IMG/VR virus record: IMGVR_UViG_3300040807_001226
Span: 1-48,961 of that record
DNA from: a virus
DNA length: 48,961 nucleotides
Direction: 5' to 3' (one strand)
The first letter of the stretch is position 1, and each line of letters opens with the position of its first letter. The notes beneath the pieces are model-generated. The model was given only the letters and a program-made list of their open reading frames with translations. It was not told the DNA's origin and did no database searches. The translations under genes and the position numbers were made by a program. Shown piece by piece: positions 21,134-45,115 of this stretch.

Positions 21134-21781
21134 ATGAATAGAATAATTACTTTTGGTTGTAGTTTTACATACGGTCATGGACTTAGAGATTGTATTAATG
21201 AAAATTTAGGTCCAGGAAAATATCCTAGTATGTTTTCTTGGCCTAACTTAATTGCAAAAAAGTTAAACAAAGAAATTGTAAATATGGCTCACTGTGGTGC
21301 AAGTAACAAACAAATTGCACACTTAGTAGATAATTTTCAATTTCATGAAACAGATATTTGTTTGATACAATGGACATTGATAAACAGATATACTATTTTT
21401 TTCCAAGACAACACTATACAACAAATAACCCCTAACTCAAAAACACAAAAGGCAAAAAATTATTACAAAATGATGATGAATTTATATAACGTATATGATA
21501 AATCTATCGATATTAGATTATTATTAAACGGAATAAATTACAAATTAAAAAATAAAAACATTAAAACTATTAATTTTTCTCCTATAACAGTTAGAGATAA
21601 ATTTGATAACGATCAAAAATTATTTGAAAATTTAGTTAAATTTGATTTTTCTGTAGATAAAAACAATATAGGATTTTTACCATATGTAGACGTTGGATTA
21701 GATAATTGGCACCCGGGTCCTAAAGCACATAAACAATTTGCAGAATATATACTAGAGGAATATCCTTGGCTAAAAGACTAG
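21134..21781 (+). CDS. SGNH/GDSL-family hydrolase, copy 2
   Basis: The 215-aa product starts MNRIITFGCSFTYGHG, with Ser10 in block I, GASNKQI, ICLIQWT and a C-terminal D190-x-x-H193 in DNWHPGPKAH. It is closely similar in layout to the preceding gene and to a third copy on the opposite strand at 43016-43585. No good ribosome-binding site is visible, so it may rely on read-through translation from the gene 7 bp upstream. It overlaps the next gene by 16 bp. It is probably an esterase or acyl-transfer enzyme of glycan decoration; substrate unknown. Confidence 0.68.
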   Translation: MNRIITFGCSFTYGHGLRDCINENLGPGKYPSMFSWPNLIAKKLNKEIVNMAHCGASNKQIAHLVDNFQFHETDICLIQWTLINRYTIFFQDNTIQQITPNSKTQKAKNYYKMMMNLYNVYDKSIDIRLLLNGINYKLKNKNIKTINFSPITVRDKFDNDQKLFENLVKFDFSVDKNNIGFLPYVDVGLDNWHPGPKAHKQFAEYILEEYPWLKD

Positions 21782-25665: not shown

Positions 25666-26895
25666 ATGAATATCGGTTTTATCGGTGTAGGTAAACTTGG
25701 CATGCCATGTGCAGAAGCTATTGTACAAAAAGGCCATAATGTGTCTGGATACGATATTGCACCTAGAACAAGTGACTTTGTAACAGTAGTTGACACAATT
25801 GAAGATGTTGTAAAAGATCGAGATATTGTGTTTGTTGCTGTTCCAACGCCGCACGATACAGATTATGATGGCAGAGCTCCTACAGCACATTTAGAACCTA
25901 AAGACTTTGGATATGGCATTGTTCAACATGTTATAGAAGAAGCAAACAAGCATATGAACAAAGATCAGTTGCTTGTTCTTATTAGTACAGTGTTACCTGG
26001 TACAACACGCAGAGAGTTTGTACAGCTAGTTACTAACACACGTTTTGTATACAATCCTTATTTAATTGCTATGGGCAGTGTAGCATGGGATATGGTAAAT
26101 CCAGAAATGGTAATGATTGGCACAGAAGATGGAAGCAAAACAGGCGATGCAAAACAGCTTGTAGACTTTTATAAAACCGTAATGGAAAACGATCCTCGCT
26201 ATGTAATTGGTACATGGGACGAGTGTGAATGTATTAAAGTATTCTACAATACATTTATTAGTGCTAAAATTGGACTAGTGAATATGATACAAGACGTTGC
26301 AGAACGTCAAGGAAACATTAATGTTGATGTTGTAACAGATGCACTAGCACAAAGTACTATGCGTATTATGGGCCCGCAGTATATGAAAGCAGGAATGGGA
26401 GATGGTGGCGCATGCCATCCACGTGATAACATTGCACTACGCTACATGGCACAAGAACTAGGACTAGGTTACGACTTGTTTGACAGTATAATGCATGCTA
26501 GAGAAATACAAGCAGAAAATCTTGCACTTAAACTAGTAGAACAAGCAAACGAACATAACTTGCCTATTTACATTCACGGTAAAGCATATAAGCCAGGTGT
26601 AGAATACTGTGATGGTAGTTATAGTTTACTAGTCGGACACTACTGTGAAGCACATGGCTTTGCTCCTACGTATATTGATCCATTAACTGGAGACAATAAC
26701 GAACCAAACGGGCCTTGTGTAATGTTATTAGCTCATAGTGCTAGTACAACTTACAAGTATATGAAAGAGGAAGGCGATGACACTGACACACTTTATTGTG
26801 TTGTACCTGCAGGCAGTGTAGTTGTAGATCCTTGGCGCAGTTTTGTATCTAACGTAAGCAAAGTTATCTATTACGGCAACACAAGAAATGTATGA
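25666..26895 (+). CDS. UDP-glucose/GDP-mannose dehydrogenase family protein
   Basis: The 409-aa product has an NAD-binding Rossmann motif GVGKLG (G7-G9-G12) at the start, VPTPHD, STVLPGTT, and a GDGGACHPRD block with Cys250 at the catalytic thiol position (compare GFGGSCFPKD of UDP-sugar 6-dehydrogenases). A C-terminal GKAYKPGVEYCDGS segment fits the third domain. Such enzymes oxidise C6 of UDP-sugars to the uronic acid in two NAD-dependent steps. Length is normal. With the two genes upstream it resembles the WbpA/WbpE/WbpD set. The start has AGGAG 6 bp upstream and its own late-promoter motif. Confidence 0.8.
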   Translation: MNIGFIGVGKLGMPCAEAIVQKGHNVSGYDIAPRTSDFVTVVDTIEDVVKDRDIVFVAVPTPHDTDYDGRAPTAHLEPKDFGYGIVQHVIEEANKHMNKDQLLVLISTVLPGTTRREFVQLVTNTRFVYNPYLIAMGSVAWDMVNPEMVMIGTEDGSKTGDAKQLVDFYKTVMENDPRYVIGTWDECECIKVFYNTFISAKIGLVNMIQDVAERQGNINVDVVTDALAQSTMRIMGPQYMKAGMGDGGACHPRDNIALRYMAQELGLGYDLFDSIMHAREIQAENLALKLVEQANEHNLPIYIHGKAYKPGVEYCDGSYSLLVGHYCEAHGFAPTYIDPLTGDNNEPNGPCVMLLAHSASTTYKYMKEEGDDTDTLYCVVPAGSVVVDPWRSFVSNVSKVIYYGNTRNV

Positions 26896-27562
26896 CATTG
26901 TTTTTATATCATATCAAGAACCAAACGCAGATGAAAATTTTAAAAAATTAAAACAACAGTTTCCTATGGCAAAACGTGTACACGGTGTTAAAGGTATACA
27001 TCAGGCACATATTGACGCAGCTAAAAAATGTTTTACTAAAATGTTTTGGGTAGTTGATGCAGATGCGTTGATTGTAGATGACTTTAATTTTGACTACGAA
27101 GTAGACGAATACGATCTAGAAACTGTTCACGTATGGCGCAGTAAAAATCCTATTAATGACTTAGTATATGGATATGGTGGAATAAAATTACTTCCTCGTA
27201 GATTAACTATTAATATGGATACTAGTAAGCCTGATATGACTACTAGCATCAGTTCAAAATTTAAAGCAGTTCACAAAGTTGCAAACGTAACAGCATTTAA
27301 TACTGACCCATTTAATACCTGGAAAAGTGCATTTCGTGAATGTGCTAAACTTAGTAGTAAAATAATTGATAGGCAGAAAAATGACGAAACAGAAAAAAGA
27401 CTTGAAACGTGGTGTACAGTTGGAGAAGACAGACCTTACGGTTCCTATGCTCTTGCCGGTGCTAGGGCTGGCCGTGAGTTTGGCCTTTCTAATCGCGATG
27501 ATCTTAAGTTAATAAATGATTTTGATTGGCTAAAGGAGTGTTTTAATGAGCAATACAGTTAA
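26888..27562 (+). CDS. GT-A-like glycosyltransferase, paralogue of 16906-17823
   Basis: The 224-aa product starts YDIVFISYQEPNADENF, then MAKRVHGVKGIHQAH, a DXD motif (D57-A-D59 in WVVDADALIV), YGYGGIKLLP and FNTWKSAFRECAKL. The order of motifs is identical to the 305-aa paralogue, but the C-terminal ~80 residues are absent. It overlaps the dehydrogenase gene by 8 bp and the methyltransferase gene by 17 bp. The two copies bracket the block of radical-SAM, SGNH and nucleotide-sugar genes. It probably transfers a sugar; donor and acceptor unknown. Confidence 0.62.
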   Translation: MYDIVFISYQEPNADENFKKLKQQFPMAKRVHGVKGIHQAHIDAAKKCFTKMFWVVDADALIVDDFNFDYEVDEYDLETVHVWRSKNPINDLVYGYGGIKLLPRRLTINMDTSKPDMTTSISSKFKAVHKVANVTAFNTDPFNTWKSAFRECAKLSSKIIDRQKNDETEKRLETWCTVGEDRPYGSYALAGARAGREFGLSNRDDLKLINDFDWLKECFNEQYS

Positions 27563-28229
27563 TCTTTTAAATGGATTAGAGTATCTTTATCCTAATAATA
27601 ATACTATTAGTCAAATGAAAAGAACATTAAATAAATTTCCTAAATGCGAATCTGCGTTGGTCGATGCTTATAGTTTAGGACAATTAAAAAGCAAAGAATG
27701 GCTAGTAGAAAATCTTCCAGATAATTTAGGGACAGTTTTTATATGCGCAGGTTGGTACGGCACATTAGCTAGTATGATGTTTGAACGTGCTAGAGATAAG
27801 TTTGATAAAATTCGTAGTTTTGATATAGATGAAATGTGTGCTCCTATAGCAGATACTATAAATCGACCTTGGGTAATAGACGGTTGGCAATTTAAAGCAT
27901 CGACAGCTAATATAAACGAATTAGATTATCCAACTGAATATGTTACCTTTCGTTCTAATGGAACTTCGCAAAATCTTGTAGACATGCCCAATACTATAAT
28001 TAACACTAGCTGTGAGCACATAAAAGATTTTAATTTATGGTATGAAAAAATACCTGTAGGCACATGTGTTTTATTACAAACTAATAATTATTTTGATTTG
28101 CCTGAACATATTAATTGTTGTATAGACTTAGATGATTTTGCACGAATGACACCGATGGAAAACGTGTTCTATCAAGGAGAACTTAACTTATCTAAATATA
28201 AAAGATTTATGAGGATAGGTATAAAATGA
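27546..28229 (+). CDS. Class I SAM-dependent methyltransferase-like protein
   Basis: This 227-aa protein has a Rossmann-like opening (VFICAGWYGTLASMMFE, with the G-x-G-x-x region replaced by AGWYG), followed by RSFDIDEMC, the acidic strand-2 end expected to bind the SAM ribose, and later PNTIINTSCEHI and PVGTCVLLQTNNYF. I recognise this family from marine T4-like phages, where it is annotated as methyltransferase. AAGGAG lies 7 bp before the ATG. It ends with an ATGA overlap to a radical-SAM gene. Substrate unknown; a sugar or the tailoring product of the neighbours is possible. Confidence 0.62.
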   Translation: MSNTVNLLNGLEYLYPNNNTISQMKRTLNKFPKCESALVDAYSLGQLKSKEWLVENLPDNLGTVFICAGWYGTLASMMFERARDKFDKIRSFDIDEMCAPIADTINRPWVIDGWQFKASTANINELDYPTEYVTFRSNGTSQNLVDMPNTIINTSCEHIKDFNLWYEKIPVGTCVLLQTNNYFDLPEHINCCIDLDDFARMTPMENVFYQGELNLSKYKRFMRIGIK

Positions 28230-29212
28230 CAGTGTTAGTTTTAACAAATAAACGTGTGTTAAAAAAAACTAACTTGCGTGATATAAAAAAAAGAAATATA
28301 AAGTTTAAAAATTGGTTTTGTCCAATTGCAAAAAATGCTGTGTCATTCAGTGTAGATGGAAATGCTATGTCGGGTGTCTGTGGTAATTTAAGGATATCTA
28401 CAGACACATCTCCTTGGTGGACAAAATTTGATGAAATAAAAAATTTATTACATAATGCAAGTAATAATTGTAGGATTTCGATTTGTTCTTGCGGAAGCGA
28501 TTTGTTAGCATATAAATCCATTGATCAAGAAACATATGATTTATTTGTCGAGAAAGCTAATAGCGTTCGAGATTATAGTACTTTACCTAGTTTAACAAAA
28601 AAAGATGAAGTAATTGCACTAGGAGGAGCCAACAAAAATTTAGATTTTACTTTGACATTAGACTATACAAAAAGATGTAACTATGATTGTATATACTGTA
28701 GTCCGTTTGTTCATAATAATTATGGTAACTTTTTAAGTTTAGAAAAAATAAAAAAATTATTTGAGTGTTTGGAATTTAAATCTATGTCAAATTACAAACT
28801 TAATCTAATAATAACTGGTGGCGAACCTACACTTAGTAAAGAATTGATAGAATTAGTTGATTTATGTTATGAATACAGGTTTAGTCATATCACTATCAAT
28901 AGTAACGGAACTGCTCCGTCTGCACTATATGAAAAATTATTAGAAAAAAACGTATTTTTTATTATAACATTACATGAAGAATTTGCAAACAAAAAACTTA
29001 TTGAAAAAGTTTACACAATTTATAAAGAGAACTACTCTATGGTACAAGTAGATATGTTAGGAGATGACAAAAATAATAGAATTTTTTGGAATTTAGTAAA
29101 AAGTGTTTTTGGATTAGATTTTGATTCGATTAAAAAACAACATATTTATTACAATAAACGCATTGTAAACTCAATAGAAAAAATCAAACTACTCAAGGCT
29201 AGACAATTATGA
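28226..29212 (+). CDS. Radical-SAM protein with N-terminal SPASM-like Cys domain
   Basis: The 328-aa product has two parts. Residues ~25-100 hold a Cys-containing domain (NWFCPIAKN, GNAMSGVCGN, CRISICSCGS) that resembles a SPASM auxiliary-cluster domain, placed N-terminally rather than C-terminally. Residues ~140-300 are the radical-SAM core with CNYDCIYC (C151, C155, C158) and TGGEPTLS (G198-P201). It is the first of three related proteins in this stretch (with 30354-31298 and the split pair at 31292-32246). ATGA couples it to the upstream gene, and it overlaps the next radical-SAM gene by 4 bp. Confidence 0.75.
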   Translation: MTVLVLTNKRVLKKTNLRDIKKRNIKFKNWFCPIAKNAVSFSVDGNAMSGVCGNLRISTDTSPWWTKFDEIKNLLHNASNNCRISICSCGSDLLAYKSIDQETYDLFVEKANSVRDYSTLPSLTKKDEVIALGGANKNLDFTLTLDYTKRCNYDCIYCSPFVHNNYGNFLSLEKIKKLFECLEFKSMSNYKLNLIITGGEPTLSKELIELVDLCYEYRFSHITINSNGTAPSALYEKLLEKNVFFIITLHEEFANKKLIEKVYTIYKENYSMVQVDMLGDDKNNRIFWNLVKSVFGLDFDSIKKQHIYYNKRIVNSIEKIKLLKARQL

Positions 29213-30354
29213 AACAAAATTATTGCGGATATGTAGAAAAAGGCGCAAGAATAAAAATATACGATATAAACAACGAAACTTATGCATATATAAAACCTTG
29301 CTGTCATATTACACACGAACTTGAACCTTCTGAGTTTAGCAAACCTGTAAAAGTAGAATCTATTAAAGACATTATGAATCTAGCACCGTTACAATATTAT
29401 AGAGATTACTTTGCTAATAATGATGACTTACATCCTGCGTGTATAGGTTGTAAAAACTATGAAACAAAAGGTATTAAAAGTCCTAGAGATAAGATCAATA
29501 GTATTAACTATTCAGAGTACGATATTAATAAATTAGATGTAGTGTTAGGTAACAGTTGTAATCTTGCATGTCCGTTTTGTACTAGTTATGCAAGTAGTTT
29601 AATTGATAAACTTTCTAATAAATTAGATGACGACAATAGGCCAAAGTCTTGGATACCTTTAACTAATTCTTTTAGTGCAGGTTCAACTAGAACAGCAGAT
29701 GTTATTGCTGAAATACTACAACATTACAAAGTTCATACTCTTAAACTAATTGGCGGAGAACCCTTTTTAAAAGAAAATTGGGATAAGATTGCAGATGTTA
29801 TTGATAAAGATTATTGTAGAGATTTACACTTAGAAGTTACTACAAACGGAACTATTCTTAATGAAGAAATATTTTCTCGTCTAAGTAAAACTAAAAGCGC
29901 ACATTTACGCATTAGTGTAGACAGTATCGATTCTAACTATGAGTTTATACGCTGGCCACACAAATGGAGTAAGATGCACAAAAATTTAGAATACTTGCGA
30001 AATAATAAATTTGATAATATTCATATCAGCGTGTCGAACTTAGTTAACATATTTAATTTTGAGTTTTTGCCAGAAATTGAAGAATACTTTTGGGAAGTAA
30101 AAGATGTAGTAGGTTACAGTTGCGAAATCAAACCTAGTACACATTTAATGAATTATCAAAACTTACCAAAGCATATAATAGAAGATGTGCGTTCTCGGAT
30201 TAAATCGTCAGGACTAAAGAAAACACTAGTACCTGGAAACAATAATTATACAACCGAACAATTAAAGAAAGAATTTACTGTATTACTAGCACAGCGTAAT
30301 ATGAAAGCTGAAGATGTAATTGGTCCACTAACTAGGCAACACTTTGGATTATAA
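29209..30354 (+). CDS. Twitch/SPASM-like radical-SAM protein
   Basis: The 381-aa product has CNLACPFC (C117, C121, C124) and GGEPFLK (G182-P185). The N-terminal ~100 residues contain YIKPCCHI and HPACIGCKNYE, which may hold an auxiliary cluster as in the larger twitch proteins upstream. It differs from its neighbours in barrel details (LRISVDSIDSNYEFIRWP). It is coupled by ATGA to the previous gene and by a one-base TAATG overlap to the next. Several radical-SAM genes in direct series suggest successive steps on one product or a family of similar products. Substrate unknown. Confidence 0.75.
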   Translation: MKQNYCGYVEKGARIKIYDINNETYAYIKPCCHITHELEPSEFSKPVKVESIKDIMNLAPLQYYRDYFANNDDLHPACIGCKNYETKGIKSPRDKINSINYSEYDINKLDVVLGNSCNLACPFCTSYASSLIDKLSNKLDDDNRPKSWIPLTNSFSAGSTRTADVIAEILQHYKVHTLKLIGGEPFLKENWDKIADVIDKDYCRDLHLEVTTNGTILNEEIFSRLSKTKSAHLRISVDSIDSNYEFIRWPHKWSKMHKNLEYLRNNKFDNIHISVSNLVNIFNFEFLPEIEEYFWEVKDVVGYSCEIKPSTHLMNYQNLPKHIIEDVRSRIKSSGLKKTLVPGNNNYTTEQLKKEFTVLLAQRNMKAEDVIGPLTRQHFGL

Positions 30355-31298
30355 TGTTATTAGTAAAAACAATTAACGACGATATACAATCGACTACATT
30401 AGCAGATGCTAAAACAACTTTTAATAGTTTTAAAGGTTGGAAATGTTCTGCAGGATTTGATTTTCTATGGATAAACAGTGCAGGCGATGTATACGGTAAT
30501 GTTTGCCGTCATAGCGGAAAATACGGAAATGTGTTTACTGATATAGTTTTGCCAACAGAACCTATGCTATGTCCTGCAGAAAAGTGTTATTGTGCAAGTG
30601 ATATTAACATATCCAAAGCAAAAAATACTTTAGTAGATTTTAAAGTAATAAACAATGCACCGTTATACGATAATGCAGATATAATTGCTATAGGTTCAAA
30701 CGAACGATATTTTTCAATAAATTGGAATATTGGAAAACGTTGTAATTACGATTGTAGTTATTGCCCTAGTAGTGTACATGATAACAACAGTCCACACATG
30801 CAGTTTACTGATTTTAAAAATGCTTTTGATAGCATTTATAAACAAGTAAATCTAGACAATATAAAAATAACATTTACAGGCGGCGAACCTACAATTAATC
30901 CTGCTTATAAAAACATAGTCGATTATTGTTTATCTCATAACAATGTTAGTGTATTTACAAATACTAACGGAACAACAAATAAAAAGCAATTATTAGATTA
31001 TACTAATGCTGGTGGAATATATTTAAGCATACACTCTGAATATACACAATTAGATAAGTTATACGCAAAAATAGAATATGTTGCAAGTAATAAGATAGAC
31101 ACTGCACACTTAGTAATAAAGGTAATGCTGCCATTAGACTTTGATGAAACATATATAAATTTTGTAAACAAATGTAAAAAACTTGATAAAGAATGTGTAT
31201 TTGTTAATGTAGAACCTTTGGTAGATAAGTCAAATAGCAATAAAATTTATCCGTATACAGATAAACAATTAAAGTATATTAGGACACTAGAATGGTAG
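30354..31298 (+). CDS. Radical-SAM protein with N-terminal SPASM-like Cys domain, paralogue
   Basis: The 314-aa product has the same two-part layout as 28226-29212. The N-terminal domain (~residues 24-85) reads FKGWKCSAGFDFLWINSAGD, then VCRHSGKYGNV and CPAEKCYCASD. The radical-SAM core has CNYDCSYC (C130, C134, C137) followed by PSSVHDNNSPH, and TGGEPTIN (G176-P179). The core is closely related to that of the next gene, which lacks the N-terminal domain. The start overlaps the previous stop by one base. It is cytoplasmic. The target is unknown. Confidence 0.77.
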   Translation: MLLVKTINDDIQSTTLADAKTTFNSFKGWKCSAGFDFLWINSAGDVYGNVCRHSGKYGNVFTDIVLPTEPMLCPAEKCYCASDINISKAKNTLVDFKVINNAPLYDNADIIAIGSNERYFSINWNIGKRCNYDCSYCPSSVHDNNSPHMQFTDFKNAFDSIYKQVNLDNIKITFTGGEPTINPAYKNIVDYCLSHNNVSVFTNTNGTTNKKQLLDYTNAGGIYLSIHSEYTQLDKLYAKIEYVASNKIDTAHLVIKVMLPLDFDETYINFVNKCKKLDKECVFVNVEPLVDKSNSNKIYPYTDKQLKYIRTLEW

Positions 31299-31969
31299 AT
31301 TATAAAGATATAATTGCAATGGAGTCTACAAGAGATAAAGACTACTATTATGTACATTGGAATATTGGAAAACGTTGCAATTATGATTGCATTTATTGTC
31401 CTGACAAACTTCACGACCTTACTAGTCCTCATAGAGATTTAGACAGTTTAAAATCTATTGCTGACAAAATAGAACTTAATAGTCCTAGAGAACGTGTGCG
31501 CATTTGGTTCACAGGAGGAGAGCCCACAGTTAATCCTGCTTTTATGGATTTGTGTAAGCATCTTAAAACTAAAAATGGATGGTTCGTGGGACTTAATACT
31601 AACGGTAGCAGAACTGCTGATTACTTTAAAGAACTTATAAATCAAATAGACATTATTCAATTTAGCAGCCATTTTGAGTACTTAAAGTTTGATGAATTTA
31701 CTCACAAGTTAGTAGAAACGCATAAAGAAGCAAATAAGTTTCCGTACAAGCATGTAAGTTTAAATCTTATGATGGAACCAGAATTTTGGGACACCGCAGT
31801 TAAACTAGTAAAATTTTGTGAAGAGCATGGTATTATATACTATATGAAACGTATACGTAAAAAATGGGACGGTGAAAGATACGATCCTGTATATACAGAA
31901 GAACAGTTACGTTTTTTAAACGATAGTACATTTAGGTACGCACAATTGGAGAATGTAGATGAGGCCTGA
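31292..31969 (+). CDS. Minimal radical-SAM core protein
   Basis: The 225-aa product begins almost directly with the radical-SAM core: GKRCNYDCIYC (C29, C33, C36), LHDLTSPHRD and TGGEPTVNPAF (G75-P78). It matches residues ~100-314 of the preceding protein but lacks the N-terminal Cys domain, which is encoded instead by the next gene. It is short for a stand-alone radical-SAM enzyme, so partnership with that small protein is likely. It overlaps the previous gene by 7 bp and the next by 11 bp. Confidence 0.75.
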   Translation: MVDYKDIIAMESTRDKDYYYVHWNIGKRCNYDCIYCPDKLHDLTSPHRDLDSLKSIADKIELNSPRERVRIWFTGGEPTVNPAFMDLCKHLKTKNGWFVGLNTNGSRTADYFKELINQIDIIQFSSHFEYLKFDEFTHKLVETHKEANKFPYKHVSLNLMMEPEFWDTAVKLVKFCEEHGIIYYMKRIRKKWDGERYDPVYTEEQLRFLNDSTFRYAQLENVDEA

Positions 31970-32246
31970 TTTAAAAGTTTATACACAAACAGAAAGTGCA
32001 GAGGTATGGGCTAATGACTTAGTTAAAGCAGATGCTGTTAATTTTGAAGGTTGGGATTGCGGCATAGGACTAGAAAGTTTAGAAATTACAGCAGACGGAA
32101 CATTGTATAGAGGTACTTGCAAAGTTGGAGGTCCAATCGGACACGTTGATGACGAAGTATGGAACTTGCCAAAAGAGTTTATTACTTGTACAGTATCTAA
32201 ATGTACTTGCGTAGCTGATTTAAAAAGTACACGAAAAAAGAAATGA
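31959..32246 (+). CDS. Stand-alone SPASM-like Cys-rich domain protein
   Basis: This 95-aa protein contains NFEGWDCGIGLESLEITADG, then GTCKVGGPIGHV and CTVSKCTC, with five Cys in the order of the N-terminal domain of 30354-31298 (F-x-G-W-x-C, dG..Y, C..., C-x-C). The pattern is that of a SPASM auxiliary Fe-S domain. GGAG about 8 bp before the ATG and an 11-bp overlap with the radical-SAM gene upstream indicate co-translation. I infer that it supplies the auxiliary cluster in trans. It could also be a separate small Fe-S protein. Confidence 0.62.
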   Translation: MRPDLKVYTQTESAEVWANDLVKADAVNFEGWDCGIGLESLEITADGTLYRGTCKVGGPIGHVDDEVWNLPKEFITCTVSKCTCVADLKSTRKKK

Positions 32247-33067
32247 AACTTTTAAAATTAACATTTGAAAGACATACTATTAGTATAAGACTAAATGACA
32301 ACGATTTTATTAATCGTTGGTTAACTGACCTTCAACAATATATAGATAATAAAAATTATAGTTACCAAATTACACTAAACGGATTTGTAGGCAAAGATAG
32401 TTTTAAACAACTAAGACTTATAATACAAGAAATTAACAAAGCATACTCTCAATCTATTCCTTATTTGTATACAGAAAAGTTTGAGTTTACAATACAAGAA
32501 TTAAGTGACTTGCATTACATTTACGAACAACTGGCTGTAAATCCTCTATATAAATCTATAATAGGACTATTAGACAAGTTTAATGACTGTATACATCATG
32601 CAGAAGAAGCAGCAATTAAAAATCAAACAGCAGCACCACGAGTGCGTTTTAGAGTCGTAGATTCAAAAACTAGAGTTCCTAATTTTCCAAAAGTTCCGTT
32701 TAAAAAAGAAGATTACAAACTGTATGATCCGTATATTGAACCTTATGTAGTTTACTTAAATTATAATGCACTCGGCGAAGATTTTCTAAAAACATTTAAA
32801 AGTGGAAGGCCTGCTAGTACAGCAGTGCCCCTATCTAAATATAGTCCAAGTTTCTTTTTTGTGCTACAGTCAGATTATGTTGAAAAACAACATAGAGAAA
32901 TAACTAATTGTATACAATGGATGCAAAACAGCAATATAGACGTTACAGATCCTGTAAATTCACTAGGACATATTCCATTAGGTCGATTACACAAAGTTTA
33001 CCCAGAGGATTTTCTAAAAGTAATTCTACAACGAGAATTAACTAAAGTTGAAATAGAGGAATTATGA
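32243..33067 (+). CDS. Unknown partner of QueC-like ATPase, copy 1
   Basis: I do not recognise this 274-aa soluble protein. It is related to 34808-35701: LSDLHYIYEQL, DKFNDCIHHAEEA, then YIEPYVVYLNYNALGEDF, SKYSPSFFFVL and SLGHIPLGRL match LNHLHHYFEKL, ERYNVIIHRAENF, GEVYINYCEVGKP, KWYSPDFTAYF and AIGNIPVAMI. Conserved His (LH, IH) and aromatic residues stand out; there are no Cys motifs. In both copies a QueC-like gene follows with an ATGA overlap, so the two proteins probably form a complex or act in series. Helical N-terminal half, beta-rich C-terminal half. Confidence 0.6.
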   Translation: MKLLKLTFERHTISIRLNDNDFINRWLTDLQQYIDNKNYSYQITLNGFVGKDSFKQLRLIIQEINKAYSQSIPYLYTEKFEFTIQELSDLHYIYEQLAVNPLYKSIIGLLDKFNDCIHHAEEAAIKNQTAAPRVRFRVVDSKTRVPNFPKVPFKKEDYKLYDPYIEPYVVYLNYNALGEDFLKTFKSGRPASTAVPLSKYSPSFFFVLQSDYVEKQHREITNCIQWMQNSNIDVTDPVNSLGHIPLGRLHKVYPEDFLKVILQRELTKVEIEEL

Positions 33068-33714
33068 TGGCAGACATAGTTGAAACACATAATTTATGTG
33101 GTGTAGAATTTAACATATACAAAGGACCTAATGCTATTAGTGTTAGCGGCGGCGCTGATAGTGCCATACTATTATACTTCTTACTAAAGCACTCAAAAGA
33201 CCGTGTACACATTTTCACACTTGCAGACGGTACAAAACAAATCACAGGCGCAAAAGCAGCAGTAAATGTAGTTTATAGATGTGCGCAATTAACAGGTAAT
33301 TATAATTTTGAACATCATATAGACTATTCTCCCGATTATATAGATACATATGTTGAACGTTTGCCGTTTGAATATCTAGATAAAAAAGAGTTTAATGTGT
33401 TGTACGCCGGTATTACAAATGTTCCTCCGATAGAAGAACGTAAAACTTTTTATGGTGACTTTTATGAAGATACTAGAAATCCAGATATTGAAAAGGAAGT
33501 ATTTAGATATGGATTTAGCTACATTCCGTGGACAAACTATGATAAAAAGAAAATAGCAGAAATATATAAAGAATATGATTTGTTGGAAACACTATTTCCA
33601 GTTACACGAAGCTGTGAATGGAATGAACATGTAGTAGGCGAGGATCCCGGAATGGAACACTGCGGAAACTGTTGGTGGTGTCATGAAAGAAAATGGGCTT
33701 TTGGAAGATTATGA
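33064..33714 (+). CDS. QueC-like PP-loop ATP pyrophosphatase, copy 1
   Basis: The 216-aa product has the PP-loop SGGADS (S28-S33), which binds ATP for adenylation, and a C-terminal zinc site of C184, C200, C203 and C206 in CGNCWWCHERKWAFG, the layout of QueC (7-cyano-7-deazaguanine synthase). QueC turns carboxy-deazaguanine into preQ0. No QueD, QueE, QueF or TGT homologue was recognised here, and the middle of the protein is unlike classic QueC, so a different adenylate-forming reaction is possible. ATGA overlaps bind it to the unknown gene before and the radical-SAM gene after. Confidence 0.68.
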   Translation: MMADIVETHNLCGVEFNIYKGPNAISVSGGADSAILLYFLLKHSKDRVHIFTLADGTKQITGAKAAVNVVYRCAQLTGNYNFEHHIDYSPDYIDTYVERLPFEYLDKKEFNVLYAGITNVPPIEERKTFYGDFYEDTRNPDIEKEVFRYGFSYIPWTNYDKKKIAEIYKEYDLLETLFPVTRSCEWNEHVVGEDPGMEHCGNCWWCHERKWAFGRL

Positions 33715-34811
33715 TAATTGGAATATACAAAGATTTACCTGAATATTTACATATTGAGCCTACTAAACGTTGTAATGCAGCATGCCCGCAATGCCCTCGC
33801 ACTATAGGAGCATCTTTACAAACTTATCCTAACATACCAGAAACAGAGATTACACCCAACAATCTTAAAAAAATGTTGTCTGACGATTTTTTTAATAATA
33901 TAAAAAAAGTTTTAATAAATGGTAATTATGGAGATATTGTAATGCATAGATCTCCTAAAGAATTTATACAAACTTTTTTAGACAAACATTTGCATATACA
34001 AATTAATACAAATGGCGGCGCATTGTCAACTGGTTTTTGGAGTTGGTTAGGCAAACAACCAAATGTTATCGTAGAGTTTGCACTAGATGGACTAGAAGAT
34101 ACTCATCATTTGTACAGAAGAAACACACGCTTTGACATTGTAATAAAAAATGCAAAAGCTTACATAAAAGCAGGCGGCTATGCCCGTTGGATAATGAATG
34201 TGTTTGGTAATAACGAACATCAGGTAGATGCTTGTAAACAAATGAGTAAAGATTTGGGCTTTGCAGAATTTTATTCAAACGACAGTGTTAGATTTTACAA
34301 AGAATATGATGCACTAGTTGATAAAAACTTTGACGAAGTTGCTATACTATATCCTACAGAATTTGTAAAAAATAATAAAAATTTAGATAAAGAAGATAGA
34401 TCTAAGCAGTGGTATGAAAAAATATATAAATTTGTAAATCAAGAATTTGATGTTTTACAAGATGATAGATCAAAATCTTATATTAATGGTCCTGAAATTG
34501 TAGATTGCAAAGTTACACAAGGATTAGAGAGCATTTATATAAGTGGCGATAGTAGATTATGGCCGTGCTGCTGGATGGAAATTGATTACAATGAAAAGAC
34601 TTTAAATAATAATTATTCTTCTTTTGTAGATTTATTTTTTAAGACACTTAATAAAGAAAAAGATTTTAATTTGCTATCTAAACACACTGCAACAGATGTA
34701 GTTAATGCAGGACTTTTGACTACTATAGAAAACTCCTGGTCGTCTAAATGTATTGACATATGCAAACGTACTTGCGCAAGTAAAGAACTTAGAGAAGACT
34801 ATACACGATGA
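33711..34811 (+). CDS. Radical-SAM/SPASM enzyme between the two QueC-like cassettes
   Basis: This is a 366-aa product from the ATG at 33711, in an ATGA overlap with the previous stop; an ATG at 33693 is in frame but inside the upstream gene. Motif CNAACPQC (C21, C25, C28) starts the barrel. NGNYGDIVM replaces the usual GGEP. FALDGLEDTHHLYRRNT is barrel-like, and a C-terminal SPASM region has CKVTQGLESIYISGD, LWPCCWM and CIDICKRTC. It is a full-length SPASM-type enzyme, unlike the N-terminal-domain variants upstream. The position suggests that it modifies the substrate of both flanking cassettes. Confidence 0.77.
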   Translation: MIIGIYKDLPEYLHIEPTKRCNAACPQCPRTIGASLQTYPNIPETEITPNNLKKMLSDDFFNNIKKVLINGNYGDIVMHRSPKEFIQTFLDKHLHIQINTNGGALSTGFWSWLGKQPNVIVEFALDGLEDTHHLYRRNTRFDIVIKNAKAYIKAGGYARWIMNVFGNNEHQVDACKQMSKDLGFAEFYSNDSVRFYKEYDALVDKNFDEVAILYPTEFVKNNKNLDKEDRSKQWYEKIYKFVNQEFDVLQDDRSKSYINGPEIVDCKVTQGLESIYISGDSRLWPCCWMEIDYNEKTLNNNYSSFVDLFFKTLNKEKDFNLLSKHTATDVVNAGLLTTIENSWSSKCIDICKRTCASKELREDYTR

Positions 34812-35701
34812 GATTTCAAATAGTATTTTTAAATAGTGACCTAGATGAGTATGCATTAAATTATAAAGTATACAATACACCCATTGCGGTTAAATGGTAT
34901 AATGCACTATGCGAACAAGTATTAGAAAAAGATAAAACAGCTAAAGAACCTGATAGACTTTATAATTTTCCAAATGATGTATGGAACGAAGAAAAAATAG
35001 TAAGTGAACTAAACAAGTGTATTGATATTATTAATACAGAAAAAACAGTTATTAAACATGATGCATTTGTAGGCATGCCTCAAGAACAGCTAAATCATTT
35101 ACATCATTATTTTGAAAAACTTAGAGGAGAATCTGGTAATCCTGCAGAGTACTATGTAAATGCTAACGATAAACAGAAATTAGCACTAGAGAGGTATAAT
35201 GTTATTATACATAGGGCAGAGAATTTTTACGGCGGGCATAGAATATCTACAGGATATTTTCCTAGAATAGTTGTAACATTTAATAAACGGAAAAAGAAAC
35301 TTTTAGATGACAATGATTTTAAACATTTTACGTTGCATCGTAAATTTGGAGAAGTTTATATTAATTATTGTGAAGTAGGAAAACCGTTATACGATGTGTA
35401 CAAAGACGAAGATGATATTGTAGGAGAAGATAATATACGTCCGTTAAAATGGTATAGTCCAGACTTTACAGCATACTTCCATGATAGACCTGTCGAAAGT
35501 GTAGAAAAGTTTTTACAAGGTATGGATGCATGGTGGGATCAAAACAATAATTATTTAACTGCACTAGGTTTTACAAAAGGAGATCCTAAAAACGCAATAG
35601 GAAATATACCTGTAGCAATGATAGAAACAAATAAAACAGCAGAAGAAATAGTAATAAAATTATGCGAGTATAACACAATAGATAGGGTAGAACTAATATG
35701 A
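34808..35701 (+). CDS. Unknown partner of QueC-like ATPase, copy 2
   Basis: This 297-aa protein is homologous to 32243-33067 (segments listed there) and is unrecognised otherwise. Its N-terminal ~90 residues are longer and start MRFQIVFLNSDLDEYALNY. It is rich in His, Tyr and Asn, with no signal peptide and no membrane span. Divergence from copy 1 is large, yet the gene order unknown-QueC is kept and each junction is an ATGA. That argues for a functional pair rather than chance adjacency. It may be a substrate carrier, an acceptor or a regulatory subunit; the sequence does not decide. Confidence 0.58.
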   Translation: MRFQIVFLNSDLDEYALNYKVYNTPIAVKWYNALCEQVLEKDKTAKEPDRLYNFPNDVWNEEKIVSELNKCIDIINTEKTVIKHDAFVGMPQEQLNHLHHYFEKLRGESGNPAEYYVNANDKQKLALERYNVIIHRAENFYGGHRISTGYFPRIVVTFNKRKKKLLDDNDFKHFTLHRKFGEVYINYCEVGKPLYDVYKDEDDIVGEDNIRPLKWYSPDFTAYFHDRPVESVEKFLQGMDAWWDQNNNYLTALGFTKGDPKNAIGNIPVAMIETNKTAEEIVIKLCEYNTIDRVELI

Positions 35702-36435
35702 ATGGATTATTTTATTTTAACGACAACTGGAAGCGGATAGGTGTAAAATTATCTGGTGGCGCAGATAGTACAATAATGTATTATGCAATATGTAATTACT
35801 ATAAAGATAGAGATGATGTAGAAATATATCCAATGACTCTAGATACAAAATTCAAACCTTGGTACAGCAAAGGTGCTAAACGTATTATAAAAAAAGTAAC
35901 AGAGCTGACAGGTAAAGCACCTGCAAAGCATATAGTAAAATACTCAAAAAAACATCGCAATAGACAAACAGTTCAATATTATATTACAGAACAACGTGAA
36001 TTAATAAGAGAAAGCCAAACACTTTATAATTTTGATGCAATTTATAATGGATTAACTAGTAATCCTCTTGAAGAAAATATACTAAATGCTGTAAAAGAAT
36101 ATTACGCAGATAATGCAGAAACATATGAAATTGCAAAGAGTCACATTGTAAAAAGAGATTTTGATAGAGATATAGGAAAAAACAAGTATGGACAAAATAT
36201 AATAGACGCAAAACATTTTATTAATATAAGACCGTTTGTACACGGTGACAAAAAACTTATATATGATGCATATAAATATTATGACAGATTAGACGATCTA
36301 TACCCGTTGTCTTACAGTTGCGAAACTAGATGGCAAGAACACAAAACTAAAACTCTGTCTGAACATGCATGGGAACATTGTGGATATTGTTTTTTTTGTG
36401 CTGAACGTATATATGCATTTGGAAAATTAAAATGA
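35698..36435 (+). CDS. QueC-like PP-loop ATP pyrophosphatase, copy 2
   Basis: The 245-aa product has the PP-loop LSGGADST (S19-S24) and zinc ligands C208, C228, C231 and C234 in CGYCFFCAERIYAFG. It is the paralogue of 33064-33714 with an insertion of about 30 residues in the middle (KEYYADNAETYEIAKSHIV). The conserved ATP and zinc sites argue for activity. It acts in the cytoplasm. ATGA overlaps link it to its unknown partner upstream and a 2OG-oxygenase-like gene downstream. Annotation as queuosine QueC would go too far without the rest of that pathway. Confidence 0.67.
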   Translation: MNGLFYFNDNWKRIGVKLSGGADSTIMYYAICNYYKDRDDVEIYPMTLDTKFKPWYSKGAKRIIKKVTELTGKAPAKHIVKYSKKHRNRQTVQYYITEQRELIRESQTLYNFDAIYNGLTSNPLEENILNAVKEYYADNAETYEIAKSHIVKRDFDRDIGKNKYGQNIIDAKHFINIRPFVHGDKKLIYDAYKYYDRLDDLYPLSYSCETRWQEHKTKTLSEHAWEHCGYCFFCAERIYAFGKLK

Positions 36436-37001
36436 ATTTTAAAGCATTAGAGCTTCCTTATTACGATGTAAAAAGTGTATTAGATAATATGCTTAAAGAT
36501 AAAATTGTGCATTGGACAGATTTAAATCAAATTTGTATCAACACTGTAGCAGGCGAAGAAGATAATTTTTTATATGGCGCAGGAAGTTTGTTTTATGATT
36601 GGTCTAACGGTAAAGAAGTTTATGACGAAAAAGGTCACATGCGCCATGTACCAGCAGAAAGAGAAACACCGTTAAAAGAAGCAGATTTTACAGTTTTGTG
36701 TACTGTGTTTAAAAATACTGTGTTTGAAGATCTTTATAATGTACTAAAAGAAAATTATAATGTAGGCAGAGTGCGGCTAATGAAAAGTCCTCCTAAAACT
36801 TGTTTAAGTTGGCATGTAGATGACACTAAACGCATACACTATCCTATAGTTACGCAAGAAGGCTGTTTTATGTTAATAGAAGATGAAGTAAAACATTTGC
36901 CTCAGCACACTTGGTGGTTAACTAATACATTAGTAAAGCACACAGCACTAAACGCAAGTTTAGAAGATCGTGTACACCTTGTAGCCACATTGCTCGATTA
37001 A
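36432..37001 (+). CDS. Aspartyl/asparaginyl beta-hydroxylase-like 2OG oxygenase
   Basis: The 189-aa product has a cupin-like core with RVRLMKSPPKTCLSWHVDD (H128, D130), RIHYPI, and a second metal His at VKHTALN (H170) followed by R180 for 2-oxoglutarate (RVHLVATL). This is the layout of Asp/Asn hydroxylase-type Fe(II)/2OG oxygenases. The N-terminal ~85 residues are unrecognised. It is the last gene of an unbroken coupled array; the next gene starts after a 32-bp gap with a late-promoter motif. The hydroxylated target is unknown. Confidence 0.65.
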   Translation: MNFKALELPYYDVKSVLDNMLKDKIVHWTDLNQICINTVAGEEDNFLYGAGSLFYDWSNGKEVYDEKGHMRHVPAERETPLKEADFTVLCTVFKNTVFEDLYNVLKENYNVGRVRLMKSPPKTCLSWHVDDTKRIHYPIVTQEGCFMLIEDEVKHLPQHTWWLTNTLVKHTALNASLEDRVHLVATLLD

Positions 37002-37474: not shown

Positions 37475-38096
37475 TGTACAGCAACTTTTTAGTATACCTG
37501 TTTATAAAAAGAATTTACAAGGTATAGATGTGTCAAGTTTTAGATCACGGGTACTTGAACTATTAAACATTGATAGTTACGGCGATCATATAAGTGTTGT
37601 AGGTATGAACGATGCTAGTACTATAAACACATATGGTATAGAACGTCACATGCAAAATTGGGAAGAAACTAATCAGCTAGTTAACGCTATTAATCCTTGT
37701 ATTGCAGAGTATTGGAAAGAGCTAAATTATCATCCTAATATTAAACCTTATATACAAGAAATGTGGGCTACCATTAGTAGAAAAGATGGTTATGTTCCTA
37801 GTCATTTTCATGGACCAACACCTATTACAGCAGTTTACTATCTTGATAAAACAGAAGGTTCGGGAGACTTAATTATACAGCATCCTTTAGAAGCACTATT
37901 AGGATCACAACCTATTAATTTTCCTTTTGATGAATTTGAACAAAGAATGAAAATACAGCAAGGAGACTTGATAATGTTTCCTGGCTATATACGACACAAA
38001 ACAGAGCGCAATGTATCAGACGATATTAGAATAAGCATAGGAATGAATGTAGCCTCTCGCGGAGAATATGTTGCATCACAGTGGAACCAGGTATGA
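37467..38096 (+). CDS. Fe(II)/2OG oxygenase of the 2OG-FeII_Oxy_5 type
   Basis: The 209-aa product opens with LFSIPVYKKNL, common in this family. PSHFHGPTPITAVYYL (H113, H115), DLIMFPGYIRHKTERN (H177) and IRISIGMN (R188) give the metal and 2-oxoglutarate ligands. I recognise the family (PF13759 type) from marine phages, where members are frequent but their targets are mostly unknown. It is soluble. It overlaps the upstream gene by 8 bp and is coupled to the amidinotransferase gene by ATGA. Confidence 0.75.
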   Translation: MSNVQQLFSIPVYKKNLQGIDVSSFRSRVLELLNIDSYGDHISVVGMNDASTINTYGIERHMQNWEETNQLVNAINPCIAEYWKELNYHPNIKPYIQEMWATISRKDGYVPSHFHGPTPITAVYYLDKTEGSGDLIIQHPLEALLGSQPINFPFDEFEQRMKIQQGDLIMFPGYIRHKTERNVSDDIRISIGMNVASRGEYVASQWNQV

Positions 38097-39115
38097 TTTG
38101 GACAGAATGGGATAAACTAAAAGAAGTTATAGTAGGATCTACATACGATTTAGATTCGTTAAATCAATTTAACGATAACGAATTTGTAGATGGCATGGGC
38201 AAAATATTAGAAGAGACTGAACAAGACTTTTCTAAACTTGCAGGAATATTTGAACAACATGGTGTGAAAGTACATAGACCTAGGAAACTTCCTTTACTAA
38301 AAGAAAATACAAGAACATGGAATTCTAAGTTTCCTTATCCTGCTATATGTCCTAGAGATTTTCATGTAGTATACGGAAATACTATTCTCGGAACTATTGG
38401 CGGAGATTGTAATAGGTATACTGAAAGTGATTACTTTCTAGATATAATGCTTGAAAAATTTAAAGAAGGGCGTAACTATATAAGTATGCCTAAACCGTTA
38501 CTACAAAGCGACTACAAAGAGTATGAACAACTAGAAGGCCAGATTCTATGGCATGCAGCAAACATTATTAAATGCGGCGACACGCTGTTACACACACAAC
38601 CTTATGCGCCTGGACAGCACGGCAGGGGAACACAAGCAGGACTAGACTGGATTAAGCGCAATATTGGTTACGATGTTAAATGGGCAGAAATACCAAGAAC
38701 AGGACATGCAGATGGTAAGATTGCTCTTATTAAGCCAGGATTATTGTTTTGCTGGGATCCTAGTGCAATACCAGAAGAATTAAAAAGTTGGGATTACATT
38801 AAACTAGAGCGTAAGCCACTACCTGATTATTTTAATGATATTAAAATTCAACACTTTTATAAAGATAAAGTTACAAATTGGTTAGATCATTGGATTGGTT
38901 ATGTTGATGAAACTGTGTTTGATATTAACGTAGTAAGTATAGATGCTAACACTGTGATAACTAACGGCTACGATTCTGAAGTAGAACGTAAACTTAAAAA
39001 ACACGGTGTCGATATGATCCCATTTGATTTTAGACATAAGTACTTTTGGGATAGCGGTTTACATTGTGTAACACTAGACCTTACTAGAGAAGGCGAAAGA
39101 GAGTCTTATGTATAA
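38093..39115 (+). CDS. Glycine/scyllo-inosamine amidinotransferase-like enzyme
   Basis: This is a 340-aa product from the ATG at 38093 (ATGA overlap); a GTG at 38081 is in frame but less likely. EWDKLKEVIVG, PRD at 87-89, GHADGK (H205, D207) and DSGLHCVTLDL with Cys325 match the pentein-fold amidinotransferases, which move the amidino group of arginine through a Cys thiouronium intermediate. Length is near the family's 350-380. The acceptor amine is unknown. Guanidino groups occur on some sugars and amino acids, which fits nearby aminotransferases. It overlaps the next gene by 8 bp. Confidence 0.78.
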   Translation: MIWTEWDKLKEVIVGSTYDLDSLNQFNDNEFVDGMGKILEETEQDFSKLAGIFEQHGVKVHRPRKLPLLKENTRTWNSKFPYPAICPRDFHVVYGNTILGTIGGDCNRYTESDYFLDIMLEKFKEGRNYISMPKPLLQSDYKEYEQLEGQILWHAANIIKCGDTLLHTQPYAPGQHGRGTQAGLDWIKRNIGYDVKWAEIPRTGHADGKIALIKPGLLFCWDPSAIPEELKSWDYIKLERKPLPDYFNDIKIQHFYKDKVTNWLDHWIGYVDETVFDINVVSIDANTVITNGYDSEVERKLKKHGVDMIPFDFRHKYFWDSGLHCVTLDLTREGERESYV

Positions 39116-43029: not shown

Positions 43030-43585
43030 TTTTTATCTCCTTTGCTATTAGTTCTGCAAACAATTGATGTGCTGTTGCTCCTGCATGAACACCGTCACTT
43101 CCTTTTTCATTGTTTTCTCTTATATTATCAAAGTCAATGTCGAGTATATAAGAATTATTAAAATCTAAATTATTATGCAAATCTATTTGTGATAATACAT
43201 TATATATCTTTAACTCTTTTAGATATAAATTTATATGTGACATTCGTAAGTTTATATCTAAATTAGCATCGTAATGACTAAAAAGGTGTTCGTAATATGC
43301 AGTAGACACTGCGTCATTAATCCATGGACCTATTTTTTTAGATTGAGTTTCATCTAACACACACCATCTTTCAGGATATGTCCATTGTATAACTATAGTG
43401 TCTTCTGGCATAAAATTAAAATTTATAATATTATGCCATATTTTTTTATTACTAGCACCTTCTTCTCCTAAATTTACACATTCTAAATTTAATAGTTTTG
43501 CTAGTCTACTAGGCCACGATAAAGACCTATCCGGCAAGCATTGTCCGTAAGTATGACTACATCCAAATGTAATTAGTCTATTCAT
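43016..43585 (-). CDS. SGNH/GDSL-family hydrolase, copy 3
   Basis: The 189-aa product starts MNRLITFGCSHTYGQC with Ser10 in block I, then GASNKKI, TIVIQWT and a C-terminal D164-x-x-H167 in SDGVHAGATAH. It is homologous to the two copies at 20488-21781. It lies on the other strand between a desaturase and a di-iron protein, so the family serves both operons. It overlaps the desaturase gene by an ATGA and the next gene by 14 bp. There is no signal peptide. Confidence 0.68.
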   Translation of the reverse strand: MNRLITFGCSHTYGQCLPDRSLSWPSRLAKLLNLECVNLGEEGASNKKIWHNIINFNFMPEDTIVIQWTYPERWCVLDETQSKKIGPWINDAVSTAYYEHLFSHYDANLDINLRMSHINLYLKELKIYNVLSQIDLHNNLDFNNSYILDIDFDNIRENNEKGSDGVHAGATAHQLFAELIAKEIKNDTR

Positions 43586-44328
43586 TTTATAAATATTCTT
43601 TCAATTAACCAAGCACTAGGATCTAATTCCCACCATTTATGACCATGTCTATAATCAGAAGATTTATAATGGTGATAGTTATGCCATCCTTCACCTAAAC
43701 TTAGTAAACACGCTAACGGGCTATTAACACTGTCGTCGGTTGACTCTACTACTCTATAACCTGCCCAACTATAGTGAGGTATTACTCCAATTGCAGCAGC
43801 ACCGTGGAAACTTAATACAGCAGGAAATACAAATCCCCAAACTAGTAACATAGGGTCTATTAGTATTAGTATAATATATATACCTGCAATAATTTTAAAA
43901 TAGTTGTTGTGTATGATTTTAATGTCTTTGTCTCTTAACATATCGCTTACTAATCTAGGACTAATATTTGCTTCAGGGTATAAACTACTCCAGCTACGTA
44001 AGGCTCCTATTGCTTTTGGATTTTGAATGTCTGTTTCTGTATCGCTTGTTTTATGATGATGTCTGTGCAGTGCTGCCCAACTAATTGGACTTCCGAAGCA
44101 TGCAAGTATACTTATATACTTTAAAAACTTGTCACGTAAAGGACCAGTTTCAAAACTTCTGTGAGACAAATATCTATGCATAGATATATTTGCTGCAAAA
44201 AGTCCTACAAACAAATACATTAATAATCCTAACCATAATAGTGACCAGTTATTAGTATAGTAAATGCCAATAGCTAAAACTATATGATTTAACAATGTTA
44301 ATAATTGTACTTTTGTTCCGTAATTCAT
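43582..44328 (-). CDS. Membrane fatty-acid desaturase, copy 2
   Basis: The 248-aa product has hydrophobic segments at ~9-48, ~69-86, ~143-185 and three His boxes: HRYLSH (H51-H56), HRHHH (H88-H92) and HNYHH (H216-H220). This is the di-iron site of acyl-CoA/acyl-lipid delta-9-type desaturases. Length is close to compact bacterial and phage forms. It sits in the host inner membrane and would introduce a double bond into acyl chains, using host electron donors since none is encoded nearby. It is coupled by ATGA to its paralogue upstream. Confidence 0.85.
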   Translation of the reverse strand: MNYGTKVQLLTLLNHIVLAIGIYYTNNWSLLWLGLLMYLFVGLFAANISMHRYLSHRSFETGPLRDKFLKYISILACFGSPISWAALHRHHHKTSDTETDIQNPKAIGALRSWSSLYPEANISPRLVSDMLRDKDIKIIHNNYFKIIAGIYIILILIDPMLLVWGFVFPAVLSFHGAAAIGVIPHYSWAGYRVVESTDDSVNSPLACLLSLGEGWHNYHHYKSSDYRHGHKWWELDPSAWLIERIFIK

Positions 44329-45071
44329 TTTTTTATAGCTCTAATTATCCAAGCAGGTGGATCAAGTTCCCACCAACGTTCTTGATTGTTCCATGCTTTA
44401 CTGTTATGGTGATGGTTGTTGTGCCAACCTTCACCTAGTGTAATTAAGCTTGCAATCCAGCTGTTACGACTTTCATCATCTATATTATGTGTTTTGTATC
44501 CGTGCATATGAGCTATTACTATTATTGAGCTAGTGCTATGTAGTACTAATACAGCAGGTATTGCATACACATATACTATAAATAATGGATCTATTAATGC
44601 AAGCATCAAAACATATATAACATTTATGTGCAAATAATATTTGTGAGTAAGTCTATAAAATTTTATTTTTCTTAAATCTCTTGACAGCTTAGGACTAATA
44701 TGCGGAACACGCCATAACCCAAACCAAGCTCTAAACCAACCTAGATGATAAGGACTATGGACATCCGTTTCTTTTTCAGCATGACCGTGATGATGTCTAT
44801 GCAATACACTCCATGCTAGCGGACTCCCAATAGCAGTTATACATCCTATTAGTGCAAGCATATACTCAATTGGTTTATAAGTCTCAAAACTTCTATGTGA
44901 TATTAATCTATGGTATCCTATATTAATACCAAAAACTCCTATAAACCAGTATACTAATACACTCGTTCCTAAAAATGCCCATGCTGAATTTACTACACTA
45001 TAATATACACCGTATAGTGCAAGTAAGTGAGTTAAAATTTGAAGAGATCTTACAACAGTATTATGATTCAT
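44325..45071 (-). CDS. Membrane fatty-acid desaturase, copy 1
   Basis: The 248-aa product has His boxes HRLISH (H54-H59), HRHHH (H91-H95) and HNNHH (H217-H221) and the same membrane layout as the downstream paralogue. I place the start at the ATG at 45071, 5 bp after GGAG, and not at an in-frame GTG at 45104, because a late-promoter motif lies between them. It is the first gene of a six-gene - strand operon. The ribosome-binding site is one arm of a hairpin described separately. Two desaturases could act on different positions or chain lengths. Confidence 0.83.
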   Translation of the reverse strand: MNHNTVVRSLQILTHLLALYGVYYSVVNSAWAFLGTSVLVYWFIGVFGINIGYHRLISHRSFETYKPIEYMLALIGCITAIGSPLAWSVLHRHHHGHAEKETDVHSPYHLGWFRAWFGLWRVPHISPKLSRDLRKIKFYRLTHKYYLHINVIYVLMLALIDPLFIVYVYAIPAVLVLHSTSSIIVIAHMHGYKTHNIDDESRNSWIASLITLGEGWHNNHHHNSKAWNNQERWWELDPPAWIIRAIKK

Positions 45072-45072
45072 A

Positions 45073-45115
45073 AATGCTCCGATGTGTATATTATTTATTA
45101 ACACAAAGGAGCATT
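45073..45115 (-). promoter_or_regulatory. Late promoter nested in RBS-hiding hairpin
   Basis: Arms AATGCTCC (45073-45080) and GGAGCATT (45108-45115) are perfect inverted repeats. An inner stem TGTGT (45083-45087) with ACACA (45101-45105) is separated by a 2x2 mismatch, with a 13-base loop. On the - strand the loop contains ATAAATA (45099-45093) and the 3' arm contains the GGAG ribosome-binding site of the desaturase gene. RNA read through from upstream would hide the site; RNA started at the loop promoter would lack the 5' arm. Confidence 0.65.

Follow-up and report, generated by a model that had tools for sequence, protein, structure and literature searches.

Two divergent QueC-like proteins and an unnamed protein family in a radical-SAM-rich island of a phage genome

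Until now, enzymes of the QueC family have been assigned to queuosine synthesis, to LarE-, GMPS- and WbpG-type metabolism and to two defence systems (PMC13329287). The locus compared here with these systems is a run of five genes at positions 32,243 to 36,435 of the IMG/VR virus record IMGVR_UViG_3300040807_001226. The window, that is, the whole stretch of DNA analysed, is a genome fragment of 48,961 bases and 33% GC in which open reading frames (ORFs) were called mechanically. The five genes are all on the plus strand and comprise unkA (32243-33067, 274 amino acids), queA (33064-33714, 216 amino acids), a radical S-adenosylmethionine (SAM) gene (33711-34811), unkB (34808-35701, 297 amino acids) and queB (35698-36435, 245 amino acids). 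The two unk genes belong to a phage-only protein family, of which unkA is a divergent copy and unkB a typical member, and each is followed by a gene for a QueC-like PP-loop protein, as described in an initial annotation of the region. On balance, the five genes are best explained as modular accessory parts of a large, radical-SAM-rich biosynthetic or tailoring island located beside the tail-fibre genes of a marine phage.

The basis for this explanation is a set of gene families recurring in about 160 related loci and in a Bdellovibrionales contig. The recurrent elements of the loci are at least three radical-SAM families, a methyltransferase-like protein, 2-oxoglutarate (2OG) oxygenases and a glycosyltransferase-like protein, with QueC-like, unk and pyridoxal-phosphate-type genes coming and going (here and below, the labels glycosyltransferase-like, methyltransferase-like, desaturase, GmhA-like and NodU-like are assignments by eye). 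The radical-SAM family of 33711-34811 was found in 89 of these loci. Comparable clusters are seen repeatedly in uncultured aquatic phages. The contig, from a metagenome-assembled genome (L078/L079), shares these radical-SAM families and has at least a dozen radical-SAM genes as well as three QueC-likes. In the window the island extends from 13.5 to 41 kb, and tail-fibre-type protein matches were identified in its upstream flank. It resembles the lipopolysaccharide (LPS) and metabolic islands of the T4-like cyanophages P-SSM2, S-SM2 and S-SSM7 (PMC3037559) in that a T4-like marine phage carries a large cluster of accessory biosynthetic genes, and differs from them in being dominated by radical-SAM and 2OG enzymes, together with the QueC-like and new families. 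Nothing on point was found in the literature for phage radical-SAM islands of this kind. No relative of the QueC-like or unk family was identified among 50,697 phage records, and none was found in cultured phages.

Canonical QueC (PF06508 cluster 1) is a protein of about 220 amino acids with an SGGxDS PP-loop and a C-terminal four-cysteine zinc site, both of which are retained in the two phage proteins. In queA the loop is SGGADS at residues 28-33 and the cysteines are Cys184, Cys200, Cys203 and Cys206; in queB the same loop lies at residues 19-24, and the pattern SC..CGxCxxC is kept in both. Unlike canonical QueC, they lack YxQxHxxE, VPxRN and YPDC, carry a TxNP-type motif of their own (TNVPP at residues 118-122 of queA, LTSNP in queB) and show no linkage to queD or queE. 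A viral scan of IMG/VR loci with a 23-member QueC-like profile recovered at least 485 relatives, and the alignment of the family with E. coli QueC confirmed the loss of all three motifs that the canonical enzyme needs. YPDC was present in none of 73 non-redundant clusters and TxNP in 53 of them; the common motifs of the family are [GA]xTxNP and a C[FW]xC.ER tail, SGG.DS is invariant in alignment A6 and the C(x)nCxxCxxC zinc site was also identified. In QueC and Cap9 the Tyr and Asp of the YPDC-type motif bind the deazaguanine, 7-carboxy-7-deazaguanine (CDG) (PMC13329287, PMC13279940), and in QatC these residues are replaced by threonines (PMC13279940). The Pfam QueC profile scores 25.9 bits with queA (cut-off 22) and 10.3 bits, below the cut-off, with queB, which matches PHROG 1550 "QueC-like" at 2.4e-7. 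In the tree of queA and queB, E. coli QueC falls outside the family, on an extremely long branch. With the canonical substrate motifs lost, a TxNP motif in their place and no association with QueD or QueE, a non-queuosine reaction is likely, and the role outside queuosine synthesis that had been suggested for these proteins is probable.

The closest solved structure to the AlphaFold2 model of queA (mean predicted local distance difference test, pLDDT, 90.3; predicted template modelling score, pTM, 0.90) is Cap9 of type IV CBASS (cyclic oligonucleotide-based antiphage signalling system; 9NTO, E 4.8e-6), with which it shares the compact QueC fold. Further fold matches were MnmA, TtuA, LarE and GMP synthase, and lower down the nitrile synthetase ArtA. 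Unlike Cap9, the phage proteins have no CD-NTase or TGT-like partner and no YxDC, and the protein that adjoins them is without an N-terminal glycine motif. QatC of qatABCD is similar in being a QueC-family enzyme next to a protein of unknown function and in lacking the CDG-binding Tyr and Asp; it differs in its size of about 400 amino acids and in its N- and C-terminal extensions, absent from queA and queB, and the NCBIfam QatC model NF041925 gives 12.3 bits (cut-off 280). WbpG-type N-acetyl sugar amidotransferases and ArtA share with the phage proteins the ATP-pyrophosphatase chemistry in sugar or natural-product pathways. They are larger proteins with another cysteine pattern, and no match to the WbpG family was found either by NCBIfam and Pfam score or by the CxxC(x)6CxC pattern.

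The unk family is unrecognised, as first reported: neither unkA nor unkB is matched in Pfam, NCBIfam or PADLOC, and the best hit in PHROG, of unkB to phrog_9459 (E=0.018), is not significant. The two are homologous (BLASTP 22% identity, E=8e-7, in agreement with a profile of relatives), and contigs of uncultured phages yielded at least 111 relatives in profile scans. The core of the family is formed by 11 residues invariant in all 81 aligned sequences, W30, H99, E103, N131, H135, E138, N186, Y187, G191, P212 and Y216 in unkB numbering; the divergent unkA is included, retaining HxxxE (H91/E95), N114, H118, E121, NY173-174, P196 and Y200. Within this core H99, E103, H135 and E138, from an HxxxE and an NxxxHxxE on two helices, are possibly a metal site. 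The AlphaFold2 model of unkB (pLDDT 87.3, pTM 0.79) begins with a confident beta strand (residues 2-8; pLDDT about 96 for residues 1-10), and none of the 81 sequences has a glycine at position 2. Because of this N-terminus and the invariant core, the unk protein is most likely an enzyme and not the substrate of a QueC-like protein in the manner of Cap9 or QatB, the latter having a disordered N-terminal MGTS tail; a role as a QatB-like substrate or as one resembling a ribosomally synthesised and post-translationally modified peptide was ruled out on the same features. No known fold could be assigned: Foldseek against the PDB gave no solved match (best E 0.16), and a sequence-profile search of the PDB gave nothing credible, the matches to mGluR7 at E 0.06 being chance. 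The only models that match that of unkB are ten uncharacterised viral ones. In two loci (L119:6545-7855 and L120) the family is fused to an N-terminal CTP_transf_like domain (PF01467, cytidylyltransferase-like) in an ORF of 436 amino acids. No member was seen in the 40 kb read of the Bdellovibrionales contig.

Neighbourhoods were computed on the best 80 loci of each scan, the totals being at least 485 for the QueC-like family and at least 111 for the unk family. In 58 non-redundant loci with an unk gene, a radical-SAM gene was the immediate neighbour in 44 and lay within the locus in 50; the radical-SAM labels are based on similarity to window proteins, so these counts are lower bounds. A QueC-like gene was the immediate neighbour in only 5 and within the locus in 23, never in a locus without radical SAM. 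A frequent freshwater layout is QueC-like, twitch radical SAM, unk and radical SAM. The initial annotation had read each unk gene and its QueC-like neighbour as a likely functional unit, an idea that would fall if most homologues of the unk family were without an adjacent QueC-like gene; most of them are, and this unit is not supported. The ATGA overlaps it described are present, and there is one at the radical-SAM gene too, whose ORF opens at 33693 and whose probable true start is the ATG at 33711, in agreement with homologues. As a sign of special coupling between unk and QueC-like genes they were ruled out, because overlaps occur at 27 of the 32 junctions of the whole island and measure exactly 4 bp at 8 of these. 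The radical-SAM gene itself carries CNAACPQC, a CxxxCxxC motif, with extra C-terminal cysteines, and scores 31.8 bits with the Pfam Radical_SAM profile (cut-off 29.5).

The two QueC-like genes (32% identity, E=9e-25) are placed in separate old clades, queA in an "A" subclade and queB in a "B" subclade. The closest relatives of queA outside its own lineage come from loci without the unk family, and those of queB include L085 and L088, with an unk gene adjacent. In 66 loci with QueC-like genes a radical SAM was adjacent in 27 and within the locus in 39, and a second QueC-like lay within about 6 kb in 23. Of 14 non-redundant local pairs, 13 were non-sister paralogues, each member nearer to genes of other phages than to its partner, and in L162 and L170 an A-type and a B-type gene flank a radical SAM with no unk gene nearby. 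The doubling, described earlier as a doubled cassette, is therefore sound as an observation and recurs in other islands; a recent duplication of the cassette is ruled out by the trees and pairwise scores, and the doubling is the retention of two ancient, probably non-redundant enzymes. In L224, L213 and L209 a QueC-like gene of the family lies in a structural region beside a terminase-like gene, without radical SAM, which is a different context.

As parts of the island the five genes could work as follows. Within the divergent QueC family found across phages, queA and queB are ancient members that would not be redundant. At the SGGADS loop they would most likely spend ATP on activating a carboxylate as an acyl-adenylate, which would then give an amide or a nitrile or be ligated to an amine, the substrate being other than CDG. 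The unk protein would be an enzyme, possibly metal-dependent, acting with the neighbouring radical-SAM proteins. The product may be a decorated glycan, small molecule or peptide that modifies the virion or the host surface, a surface glycan or a modified peptide being the leading options. Gene content, homology, lost motifs, neighbourhoods and tree positions are observed, whereas reaction type, metal site and product are inferred. More tentatively, the islands may represent an undescribed and widespread phage system where SPASM/twitch radical SAMs and 2OG hydroxylases act jointly with two ATP enzymes derived from QueC, not redundant with each other, and with a new, probably metal-dependent enzyme family confined to phages, so as to modify the virion or host surface by way of a QueC-type reaction on a non-deazaguanine substrate. 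Several points weigh against the tailoring-island explanation: the UDP-sugar and amidinotransferase genes are not universal neighbours; some QueC-likes lie where there is no radical SAM, in structural or replication regions of phages (such as L213, L224 and L215), so the family is not exclusive to these islands; the evidence for the putative metal site is sequence conservation; and in L031 a QueC-like adjoins a true QueE, the main and single exception to the absence of queD/queE linkage.

A more specific glycan route, where a UDP-glucose-dehydrogenase-like enzyme would make a uronic acid and the QueC-like protein would amidate it to give an unusual sugar for a phage-encoded surface polysaccharide, appears unlikely, although several elements are consistent with it. 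A UDP-sugar dehydrogenase (UDPG_MGDP_dh), a DegT aminotransferase and a hexapeptide transferase lie within one run of overlapping genes, the CTP_transf_like domain is fused to the unk protein in the two loci mentioned, and GmhA-like and NodU-like genes lie alongside in the bacterial contig. LPS gene clusters are known from large T4-like cyanophages (PMC3037559), and WbpG is a sugar amidotransferase of the QueC superfamily (PMC13329287). The dehydrogenase, however, is absent from most loci with QueC-like or unk genes, and the WbpG family match is lacking. SPASM and twitch radical-SAM enzymes act more often on peptides.

Ordinary deazaguanine supply is improbable as an explanation. It would have the phage make CDG with its own FolE, QueD and QueE, queA or queB or both being a fast-evolving phage QueC that gives 7-cyano-7-deazaguanine (preQ0) for tRNA or DNA. 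No other queuosine gene had been noticed in the region, which was an effect of the window: a closely related phage (G001, a 126-kb contig with a 98% identical unkA) encodes GTP cyclohydrolase I (FolE, 133 bits), QueD and QueE (181 bits), the last two about 17-87 kb from the QueC-likes, so the phage can probably make CDG. Neither TGT/DpdA nor canonical QueC was found in this contig; PHROG 1550 scores 223 bits with E. coli QueC but only 14-20 bits with queA, queB and a TilS-like gene. The retained ATP loop and zinc site, the gap left by canonical QueC and the QueE neighbour in L031 all suit this explanation. The substrate motifs, on the other hand, are gone, and QueC-like genes are not coupled to the pathway. 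In 26 large phage records, which were chosen for holding a QueC-like or unk gene, are not all complete and are not a random sample, QueE was identified in 8 of 17 with a QueC-like and 4 of 9 without, QueD in 7 of 17 and 5 of 9, and canonical QueC in none; since the occurrence is alike in both groups, there is no sign that the QueC-like supplies a missing deazaguanine step. Two phages (L087, G012, 176 kb; L092, G013, 187 kb) contain QueD and QueE with no QueC of any type found, and may either end the pathway at CDG or depend on the host. The Bdellovibrionales genome encodes canonical QueC, QueD and a QueE-like gene besides its QueC-likes, and two different QueC-likes per island would be left unexplained.

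Conjugation to a protein on the model of type IV CBASS or Qat, where each QueC-like would attach a nucleobase or other acid to the adjacent unk protein, is very improbable: the pairing in the window, the Cap9 fold, the QatC-like loss of Tyr and Asp and the QatB-QatC precedent of an uncharacterised partner beside a QueC-family protein (PMC13279940) are outweighed by adjacency in so few loci, by the N-terminal strand without Gly2, by an invariant His/Glu/Asn/Tyr set that looks catalytic, by the missing QatC-type extensions and by the absence of any MG[GTSA][SGT] start, of the MGGS/MGTS kind, among 1,276 ORFs of the loci. PADLOC, run on the six central genes plus one relative, identified no CD-NTase, TGT, QatA or QatD; a defence assignment was rejected, the only scores being sub-threshold ones for QueC and viperin-like proteins.

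A large phage branch of the QueC family, in at least 485 IMG/VR loci, has thus lost the CDG-binding residues and recurs as two paralogues in radical-SAM islands, together with the unnamed unk family, whose His/Glu/Asn/Tyr core is invariant and for which no known fold was matched. These islands are a concrete place to seek new PP-loop and radical-SAM chemistry. That the phage CDG genes FolE, QueD and QueE are present where canonical QueC is missing makes it possible to test what they are for.

The other elements of the island described here are on the plus strand. Directly after queB lies an Asp/Arg-hydroxylase-type 2OG oxygenase (36432-37001; PF05118, 34.2 bits), found after QueC-like genes in the gene maps of L013 and L018 too. 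Upstream of unkA are a glycosyltransferase-like protein of unknown family (26888-27562; no Pfam match, family in 27 loci), a methyltransferase-like protein, Rossmann-type by eye (27546-28229; no Pfam match, family in 70 loci), two radical SAMs with an N-terminal Cys-rich domain (28226-29212 and 30354-31298; PF04055, 50 and 46 bits), a twitch-type radical SAM between them (29209-30354; PF04055, 70 bits; NF033640, 164.7 bits, cut-off 170) and a further radical SAM (31292-32246; PF04055, 56.5 bits) that has its Cys-rich C-terminal part in an overlapping ORF of its own (31959-32246). The two ORFs of the latter (225 and 95 amino acids) correspond to a single homologue of 299 amino acids (L009:7154-8053), by frameshift or genuine split. 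Twitch-type radical SAMs were also identified at 17834-19237 (NF033640, 307.9 bits, above the cut-off) and 21766-23211, relatives of the second often adjoining an unk gene in other phages. The DegT aminotransferase, the UDP-sugar dehydrogenase, the hexapeptide transferase and the 2OG oxygenases are companion genes.

Minor elements of the window are an amidinotransferase/deiminase-like protein (38081-39115; PHROG 25854, function unknown) that recurs in related islands, two adjacent fatty-acid-desaturase-like proteins on the minus strand (43582-45104; histidine boxes by eye) and a further repeat-rich, fibre-like protein (45131-46690, by eye). Flavin-dependent halogenase-like proteins (by eye) were seen in or near such islands in two other loci (L067:9456-10640 and L015:3150-4652).

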